Source: Aurantiacibacter zhengii (lineage in GTDB: Bacteria > Pseudomonadota > Alphaproteobacteria > Sphingomonadales > Sphingomonadaceae). From it: DNA of 64,000 bases. The number at the start of each line of letters is the position of its first letter. Position 1 is the stretch's first letter. The position numbers and the translations under genes were made by a program. The stretch spans positions 124,001 to 188,000 of the forward strand of contig NZ_QXFL01000006.1 of assembly GCF_003584125.1 (NCBI RefSeq), in the 5' to 3' direction. Of the stretch, positions 48,160 through 50,303 are shown piece after piece. The notes under the pieces are model-generated. The model searched no databases and had not been told where the DNA came from. It saw only the letters and a list, made by a program, of their open reading frames with translations.

Positions 48160-48933
48160 TCAGGCGTCGGCTTTGGCGTCTTCGGCCACGGCAGCTTCGG
48201 CAGGCGGTGCATCCATGGCGCCGATGTCGGCACCCGAATCCACCACGCCTTCGGTCTTGCCGGTGGTCGCGGCCTGGGCGACGGCGTCGCAATACAGGCG
48301 CACGGCGCGGCTGGCGTCGTCGTTACCGGGGATCGGGAAGGCGATGCCGCTGGGATCGACATTGGTGTCGAGCACGGCGATCACGGGTATGCCGAGCACG
48401 CCGGCTTCCTTGATGGCGAGATCTTCCTTGTTGGCGTCGATCACGAACATCACGTCCGGAATGCCGCCCATGTCGCGGATGCCGCCCAGGGAGAGTTCCA
48501 GCTTGTCCTTCTTGCGCGTCAGCTGAAGGACTTCCTTCTTCGTCAGCAGGCTGGTGTCACCGGCCAGCTGCTCTTCCAGGTTCTTCAGTTCGCGGATGGA
48601 GCCCGAAATCGTCTTCCAGTTGGTGAGCATGCCGCCCAGCCAGCGGTGGTTGACGAAGTGCTGGCCACAGGCGCGTGCGGCCTGAGCAATCGGCTCCTGC
48701 GCCTGGCGCTTGGTGCCGACGAACAGCACCTTGCCGCCTGCACGCACGGTGGAGGACACGAAGTCCAGCGCACGCGCCATCAGGGGAACGGTCTGCGACA
48801 GGTCGATGATGTGAACACCGTTGCGGCTGCCGAAGATGTACGGCTTCATCCGCGGGTTCCAGCGGTGGGTCTGGTGGCCGAAGTGTGCGCCGGCCTCGAT
48901 CAATTCCTGCATCGTGACGGTAGGAGCCGCCAT
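48160..48933 (-). CDS. rpsB: 30S ribosomal protein S2
   Basis: A 257-residue protein with the S2 blocks [32 protein letters not shown] and [19 protein letters not shown]. It ends with an Ala/Asp/Glu-rich tail ([15 protein letters not shown]). First gene of rpsB-tsf. Its promoter should lie in 48934-49131, which also contains GC-rich inverted sequences that could form a leader structure. Confidence 0.98.
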
Positions 48934-49131
48934 AAGTAAATTCCTTTCCGGTTAAGCCTCTGGAAGACGGGGAACCGGCCCACGGACATTATCCGCGGGC
49001 GGCACCGGTATGTCAGTGCCTTCCATGTGGATTTGCCCTCTTCGGCCGAAACGGGAATCGTTTCTGCCCTTCAGGCGTGGGCGCCATTAGCGGAGCATTG
49101 CGAGGAAATCCACCCGTAAATCACAGTCACG

Positions 49132-49197
49132 GAACACAAGCGGAACAAAAGTGTTGACCCTGCGGAACAAAAGTGGAACAAAGAACGCAACAGGAAC
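49132..49197 (+). promoter_or_regulatory. Three tandem SOS (LexA) boxes
   Basis: GAAC-N7-GAAC occurs three times: 49132-49146, 49165-49179 and 49183-49197, each half-site pair 11 bp apart. This is the alphaproteobacterial LexA operator (GTTC-N7-GTTC read on the other strand). A -35-like TTGACC at 49154-49159 lies between boxes 1 and 2, so boxes 2 and 3 would cover the core promoter. The last box ends 19 nt before the ATG of the small membrane protein gene. Confidence 0.8.
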
Positions 49198-49216
49198 AAA
49201 CGCAGGATCCGGAACA

Positions 49217-49417
49217 ATGACCACGGCCATCGCACTCTCCATCTTCTTCGGCTTCGTCGCGGCGCTTTCGCTCCTCTCCTGCCACGCCTGCATCCGTTAC
49301 GGCGTGATCCGCTGGGGTGAGACCCGCCGTGAACTGGCCGCTATCGGTCGCCCTTCCCCGACAGAGCCGCGTCTACTTCGTCGACCGCAAGAGGCTTTCG
49401 CGATGCTGGCGGCATAG
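49217..49417 (+). CDS. Small single-span membrane protein, predicted SOS-induced
   Basis: A 66-residue protein. Residues 4-22 form a hydrophobic helix (AIALSIFFGFVAALSLLS), followed by two cysteines (CHAC), a short basic-amphipathic stretch (YGVIRWGETRRELA) and a Pro/Arg-rich tail. No family recognised. Directly upstream are three LexA-type boxes. Small inner-membrane proteins under LexA control can be cell-division inhibitors, such as SidA of Caulobacter; this role is inference. The last 26 codons overlap the 3' end of pssA in antisense. A second ATG is not available, and the upstream ORF extension runs through the operator. Confidence 0.65.
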   Translation: MTTAIALSIFFGFVAALSLLSCHACIRYGVIRWGETRRELAAIGRPSPTEPRLLRRPQEAFAMLAA

Positions 49418-50303
49418 CCGTTTCACCGGTTTCCGGCGTATCGTCGGATACCTCGGCCCGGCGTTCTCGCTTGACCTTGGCGTATCCGGTAACCGACCAG
49501 ACGATCAGCGCCATGTAGACAACGCCGATCAGCACAAGCGTCCACCACGTTTCGATCAGCAGGCCACCCACCAGCAAGCCTGCCAGCGCTATGAAGGCCA
49601 GCTTGAAATCGCCTGAGGGGGCCAGGGATTTCCAGCTTGGCGTGGCCATGTTCGAGACCATCAGAATTGCCACCAGTATGATCCACGGTCCGACGAGCAA
49701 CGGCTCGCGGAAAATTGCTTCGCCCGTGGCCAGCCACAGGTAGACCGGCATGAAGGCAAAGCCTGCCCCCATCGGTGCAGGGACTCCCGTCAGGTATCCG
49801 GCGGACTTGTGCGGCTGGTCATCCACGTCGATCTGCGCGTTGAAGCGGGCCAGGCGCAAGGCACAGCAGATGGCATAGGCGAGCGCCGCCAGCCAGCCTA
49901 GGCGCGGCGCGTCCACCAGCGCCCACAGGTACAGCACCAGAGCCGGGGCGATGCCGAAGCTGGCGGAATCGGAAAGGCTGTCCAGTTCCGCACCGAAACG
50001 CGACTGCGCCTTCAGCAACCGTGCGATGCGGCCATCCATGGCATCAAGAACACCTGCCAGGATCATGGCGAATACCGCCTGCGGCCACTGGTTTCCGATA
50101 GCAAAGAGAATGCTGGTAAGGCCCGAACACAGCGCGGCGGCGGTAATGGCATTGGGCAGCACTGCCCGAAGGGACAGGCCCTTGCCGGCGCGAGAGCGCG
50201 TTACCCGCTCGTGCTCACTGGCCTTGGGCCCCAGCCATGCGGGCCCTGCACTTACCGTGTCATCGTCGTCATAAGCGATACTGTCGTCTTCACCCGGCCT
50301 CAC
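49341..50303 (-). CDS. pssA: CDP-diacylglycerol--serine O-phosphatidyltransferase
   Basis: A 320-residue membrane enzyme with the CDP-alcohol phosphotransferase motif: D87-x-x-D90-G-x-x-A-R, then G104-x-x-x-D108-x-x-x-D112. About eight membrane segments. A hydrophilic N-terminus of about 45 residues and a polar C-terminus flank the core. It makes phosphatidylserine, which the overlapping psd gene (4 nt) converts to phosphatidylethanolamine. Its 3' end overlaps the small SOS-type gene in antisense. Confidence 0.95.

Follow-up and report, generated by a model that had tools for sequence, protein, structure and literature searches.

Organization of the locus

The window analysed in this study is a stretch of 64,000 nucleotides of the Aurantiacibacter zhengii genome, in which a small ORF lies between rpsB, read divergently from it, and pssA, which faces it (Table 1). 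Three perfect GAAC-N7-GAAC boxes are present on the forward strand within 66 bp (49132-49197), and the last of them ends 19 nt ahead of the ATG at 49217. The promoter described in the original prediction was thus recovered with its three boxes, its distance to the ATG and its TTGACC hexamer. The boxes do not, however, overlap the hexamer as stated there; TTGACC sits between boxes 1 and 2 and overlaps neither, and it is the -10 position that overlaps box 2. The half-sites at 49132, 49143, 49165 and 49176 are spaced at 11-bp steps, and the place of the absent half-site (49154) is taken by TTGACC. The AACAAA of the -10 position was absent from the output of the promoter consensus scan.

Table 1. 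Positions of the features around the small ORF, in window coordinates
Feature	Position	Strand	Remarks
rpsB, divergent neighbour	48160-48933	-	TIGR01011, 321 bits (cut-off 76.3)
rpsB leader, sub-threshold Rfam match to rpsB sRNA RF01815	48937-49029	-	24.1 bits (gathering 40)
rpsB promoter-like site, apart from the boxes	48988-49016	-	Consensus match alone
LexA box 1, GAACACAAGCGGAAC	49132-49146	+	Perfect GAAC-N7-GAAC, 5' of the -35; conserved in genus loci
-35-like TTGACC	49154-49159	+	From sequence; TTGA[CAT] placement kept across loci
LexA box 2, GAACAAAAGTGGAAC	49165-49179	+	Perfect GAAC-N7-GAAC; occupies the -35/-10 spacer
-10 position AACAAA	49177-49182	+	Inferred at a 17-bp spacer; overlaps the end of box 2; weak consensus match
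LexA box 3, GAACGCAACAGGAAC	49183-49197	+	Perfect GAAC-N7-GAAC
Small ORF, 66 codons	49217-49417, including stop	+	N-terminal membrane helix, basic tail
pssA, convergent neighbour	49341-50303	-	TIGR00473, 106.5 bits (0.5 under the cut-off of 107)

The whole window contains 4 GAAC-N7-GAAC sites as compared to 1.67 (sd 1.27) in shuffled sequences, and 9 of 100 shuffles reach 4. The site total of the window by itself is therefore unremarkable; what is notable is the occurrence of three sites in 66 bp and their conservation.

The SOS box of the genome

Only one lexA gene scores above the NCBIfam cut-off in the A. zhengii genome, and it carries the box GAACGAATAAGGAAC 15-30 nt upstream, depending on the choice of ATG. 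Boxes of the same form are located upstream of recA, uvrA and an imuA-like gene, the last being named from a match far below the cut-off (27.5 of 150 bits). The presence of the box ahead of lexA, recA, uvrA and the imuA-like gene indicates that GAAC-N7-GAAC is the SOS box of this genome. Genome-wide, there are 135 sites of this pattern as compared to 67 of the reversed pattern, and the exact GGAACA-N5-GGAACA is found at 5 sites in 3.8 Mb, two of which belong to the promoter of the small ORF. The sites inspected in this genome were chosen by eye (first among 100 of the 135 places, then among the GGAACA-N5-GGAACA set) and do not represent a regulon census. LexA control of the small ORF, as originally predicted, is well supported by the sequence, since its box is shared with these genes and since many members of the family have kept the box, the -35 and the ORF as a set.

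Conservation in the genus and the family

A search with the 66-aa sequence resulted in matches in 27 of 61 genomes, all Aurantiacibacter (A. zhengii itself and 26 of 36 other genomes of the genus), and in no match in 24 genomes of other families. All 27 genus loci have at least one perfect upstream box (one box in 1 locus, two in 16, three in 9 and four in 1), and the consensus of the 23 of 27 ORFs that were aligned starts with MTxAIAISLFFGLVAA, followed later by IRAEL and RRPQEAFA. An alignment search of 298 family genomes gave matches in 33. Inspection of 29 family loci (L028-L056), three of which (L028, L029 and L031) are repeats of genomes from the genus search, revealed box, ORF and adjoining rpsB in 26, with a pssA match within 3.2 kb also in 22. 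The matches at L048, L049 and L054 were spurious, lying inside long ORFs, and were dropped as homologues.

The protein sequence is barely alignable between genera. As it changes fast, homologues were sought by their place beside rpsB, where a perfect box had to be followed within 200 bp by an ATG-initiated ORF of 50-135 aa whose N-terminus is hydrophobic. Of the 80 named loci with the best rpsB matches, 78 proved to have such a gene, with no box-plus-ORF at the other two, L089 and L124. Controls on the same 80 loci gave 2-5 genes with other spacings, 1 in the opposite orientation and 1 with the reversed motif, and a control on the rpsB side (277 kb from the 80 loci) gave 2 boxes and zero such genes. 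Among 60 more divergent family loci, hand-picked from the lower part of 119 (70-85% rpsB identity), box and ORF were found in 43 (41 with ATG, 2 only with another start) as compared to 1-3 in the controls; the two sets may have a few species in common. The gene is missing from this place in the other 17, mostly those of lowest rpsB identity, so that these family members must either manage without it or rely on something else.

No box was detected in 0.4-1.5 kb upstream of 22 rpsB loci from other families of the order, nor any GAAC box in 1.5 kb at 27 rpsB loci from other orders, where L188 alone has a GTTC box. Judged by its sequence conservation, the gene is real and widespread in Sphingomonadaceae, and it is known here only from this family, the samples from outside being small. 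The ORF with boxes upstream, for which the original prediction had advised a search of related genomes, was thus found there, and the lack of homologues or boxes that it named as grounds for rejection did not occur.

These comparisons also bear on whether the boxes belong to rpsB, or are repeats that arose by chance, with the small ORF incidental. This is highly improbable. The divergent rpsB does start only about 200 bp away from box 1, but it has a promoter-like site of its own, and at the 22 loci of other families in the order rpsB has no box within at most 1.5 kb. Moreover, the distance between box and rpsB is 351-1600 bp in 23 of 121 loci and 2673 bp in L304, with the ORF still behind the box, and the fact that box, -35 and ORF are conserved as a set is a further argument against this reading.

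In the promoter, TTGA[CAT] starts 7-25 bp 5' of a box in 118 of 121 loci and 9-12 bp in 109, as compared to 3-7 and 0-2 of 121, respectively, in controls shifted by 60-120 bp. The consensus derived from 95 loci is TTGAC-N5-gGAACAaAtaggGAACA. Within 200 bp of the start there is one box in 67 loci, two in 44, three in 9 and four in 1. A box thus occupies the spacer and reaches the -10 position, the place expected of a repressor.

Properties of the small protein

The product of the small ORF has 66 aa in the window and 52-108 aa across the 121 loci. No Pfam or NCBIfam model scores above cut-off for it, no LysM domain was detected by Pfam in the 8 family members scanned, and the 4 of 63 homologues that are named are each called 'hypothetical protein'. 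AlphaFold2, run with an alignment of 42 sequences (the window protein and 41 of the 63 homologous proteins), predicts a helix at residues 2-44 and a short helix at residues 57-65, with a mean pLDDT of 85.9.

In codons free of pssA overlap, of which there are at least 22 in 118 of 121 loci, pS was higher than pN in every one of 54 pairs, although the pairs are not independent, and in 41 of 41 pairs outside 12 loci taken as the genus of the window or near it. For the whole ORF, dN/dS is 0.13-0.45 in 11 genus pairs. The small ORF is under purifying selection in its own frame. That the small one-helix protein, described at first as unknown, is conserved and unnamed is supported.

Lysine or arginine occurs within the first six residues in only 3 of 121 proteins, and beyond residue 20 the overlap-free part carries a net positive charge in 109 of 116 proteins and a negative one in 5. 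According to the positive-inside rule, the positively charged side of a helix is cytoplasmic. As the positive charge follows the helix, the tiny N-terminus is predicted to be outside and the longer basic tail to be cytoplasmic, a topology drawn from the charge rule only.

The small size and single hydrophobic helix, along with LexA control, also fit a membrane-active peptide induced in the SOS response, like TisB or DinQ, which would lower membrane potential and slow growth with no divisome binding. TisB and DinQ are, however, smaller than 66-108 aa, and the small proteins with their long basic tail exceed both in size. Furthermore, Rfam, the single resource searched in this respect, gave at this locus only the sub-threshold rpsB match and no antisense RNA, as against DinQ, which is described as a toxic peptide of one helix that is under SOS regulation and has antisense RNAs (PMC3567139). 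Activity of this kind is thus considered unlikely.

Overlap with pssA

The 3' end of pssA overlaps the small ORF by 77 bp in the window (49341-49417). Convergent pssA genes are present in 119 of 121 loci; in 115 they overlap the small ORF, by a median of 59 nt, and in 112 of these 115 the stop of the small ORF has the same frame relative to the end of pssA. The convergent overlap has been long kept. This arrangement, and the absence of any terminator-like site from a scan of 48900-49600, would suit an SOS transcript that is mainly antisense to pssA by convergent transcription, the protein being secondary. Such a role is nonetheless very unlikely, as the overlap-free codons are under purifying selection in their own frame in every pair, and as L284, L296, L304 and L107 retain box and ORF without the overlap or without pssA in the DNA examined.

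The small proteins end in Ala-Ala in 106 of 121 cases as compared to 10 of 279 ORFs of at least 150 aa. This ending was initially taken for a conserved ClpXP or Prc signal (PMC7652416). As support for a conserved degron, this ending was dropped, being confounded by the pssA overlap with its one prevailing frame. PssA has a [KR][VI][KR]R stretch opposite the small-ORF stop in 85 of the 112 one-frame loci; the Ala-Ala end is present in 77 of these 85, in 25 of the other 27 and in 3 of 6 loci without pssA overlap. In the Aurantiacibacter set, where the stop is mostly placed elsewhere relative to pssA, it is present in 14 of 27. The antisense overlap shapes the 3' end of the small ORF, and the Ala-Ala ending may stem from the constraint of coding for PssA.

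Relation to sidA-like genes

A perfect box with a single-helix ORF of 26-47 aa was found in 11 of 40 regions from other alphaproteobacterial families, the 40 being hand-picked from 139 matches (L211, L212, L216, L218, L223, L226, L231, L239, L243, L245 and L248). dnaE adjoins the ORF in all 10 loci displayed; its identity was assigned in L211 and L245, and L211 has a LolD-like gene on the far side. Lysine and arginine are commoner before the helix than after it in 11 of 11, and no NCBIfam match was obtained for the 5 ORFs scanned. These boxed ORFs beside dnaE are probably sidA-like genes, one of them presumably being Caulobacter sidA itself. The latter is given as CCNA_02004 (PMC10769358), and dnaE of Caulobacter crescentus as CC1926 (PMC1839093).

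The A. zhengii genome retains a LolD-like gene near dnaE, with no perfect box upstream of dnaE or between the two genes. In all 13 family genomes with the rpsB-side gene, dnaE is on a different contig or at a distance of at least 142 kb, while in those without it dnaE is within about 10 kb of rpsB in 10 of 17. Shared ancestry may explain why the rpsB-side gene occurs where dnaE and rpsB are far apart. None of 30 family genomes was found to have a boxed ORF in front of dnaE, and these include the 10 without the rpsB-side gene in which dnaE is within about 10 kb of rpsB; among the 30, G087 is an unfair case, since its match starts inside dnaE, and the box of G111 is in the opposite orientation, with no such ORF. 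A simple move of sidA from dnaE to rpsB does not follow from these data. The gene beside rpsB may take the part played elsewhere by sidA.

Comparison with known division inhibitors

SulA of E. coli is not known to be a membrane protein. It resembles the present protein in blocking division in the SOS response, provided that the role proposed below holds, and differs in that its reported target is FtsZ (PMC4211646, PMC6851548). SidA, DidA, SosA and YneA are described as small membrane proteins that are induced by the SOS response or by damage and block division (PMC4211646, PMC6851548, PMC13396833, PMC6051672). SidA of Caulobacter crescentus, also an alphaproteobacterium, is likewise a small protein of the inner membrane under LexA control, with a box of the GTTC-N7-GTTC type (PMC4211646, PMC12700426), but it is reported to have 29 aa and to bind FtsW (PMC4211646), in contrast to the 66 aa of the window protein. 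Positive charge follows the helix here and precedes it in the 11 sidA-like ORFs, SidA itself being known here by description; the sidA-like ORFs adjoin dnaE, a feature deduced in this analysis, and the small ORF adjoins rpsB.

DidA, also from Caulobacter, is comparable in having 71 aa and one helix, and differs in being SOS-independent and DriD-driven, with cytoplasmic and periplasmic parts, and in binding FtsN (PMC4211646). SosA of Staphylococcus is alike in its 77 aa, N-terminal helix and tail, SOS control and fast sequence change, and sosA has been traced by chromosomal place across staphylococci at 25-60% identity (PMC13396833). The tail of SosA is reported to be outside (PMC13396833), unlike the predicted cytoplasmic tail of the window protein. 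YneA of Bacillus subtilis is SOS-induced, with one helix, binds FtsW and is short-lived (PMC6851548, PMC6051672); its extracellular LysM (PMC6851548) has no counterpart here, where the tail is predicted to be inside.

Proposed role

The evidence leans, by a little, towards a LexA-repressed single-pass checkpoint protein that would act like SidA, SosA or YneA, probably on the divisome. The box, promoter position, conservation, purifying selection and hydrophobic helix were observed here; topology, induction and the divisome target are deduced. LexA would bind the direct-repeat boxes, one to four in number and one of which lies in the -35/-10 spacer, and block the promoter. Upon DNA damage, RecA-driven cleavage of LexA, an established pathway, would free the gene, whose product is predicted to be a single-pass inner-membrane protein with the tiny N-terminus outside and the longer basic tail in the cytoplasm. 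By analogy, this protein may hold the late divisome (at the level of FtsW, FtsI or FtsN) until repair is complete. The original prediction is thus supported in part, its division inhibitor being kept as an analogy. Counted against this reading are the 17 of 60 divergent family loci that lack the gene at this place, the tail predicted inside, unlike that of SosA and YneA, the fact that no family model links the protein to division, and the influence of the pssA overlap on the 3' end of the gene.

A SOS role in the envelope or another membrane complex (as a regulator of a protease, phospholipid or respiration), and not in division, is rather unlikely. The neighbour pssA makes phospholipid precursors, and Caulobacter HigX is reported as an SOS-controlled membrane regulator that acts on the envelope (PMC13384398), but no sequence or family match was obtained in that direction.

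A more detailed form of the checkpoint reading is tentative. It supposes an unnamed SOS checkpoint family in most Sphingomonadaceae sampled, with a topology opposite to that of SidA, SosA and YneA; the helix would engage the divisome, the basic cytoplasmic tail would make a second contact (FtsZ, FtsA or nucleoid), and a C-terminal degron might end the block.

The open-access literature, supplements not covered, gave no description of this gene, nor of division arrest after DNA damage in sphingomonads; it may already have been published among induced ORFs that were given no name. The nearest report is of lexA, recA, imuAB-dnaE2 and others being induced in Sphingopyxis granuli under anoxia (PMC6472365). 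One place (divergent from rpsB and facing pssA) and one promoter signature now identify the candidate in much of the family, which makes its role directly testable in sphingomonads, where by analogy it may serve to pause division during DNA repair. It would also add an independent case of SOS division blockers being small, fast-changing membrane proteins.

Other boxed small ORFs of the genome

An exact GGAACA-N5-GGAACA is also present elsewhere in the A. zhengii genome (L333, C24:474433), its first base lying 42 bp 5' of a single-helix ORF of 30 aa, relatives of which were found in 2 of 24 genomes of the same genus that were searched. L165 and L169 (on C12 and C22) resemble each other, each with two perfect boxes and a membrane protein of 104-119 aa, which appears pilin-like by eye and is perhaps derived from mobile elements.
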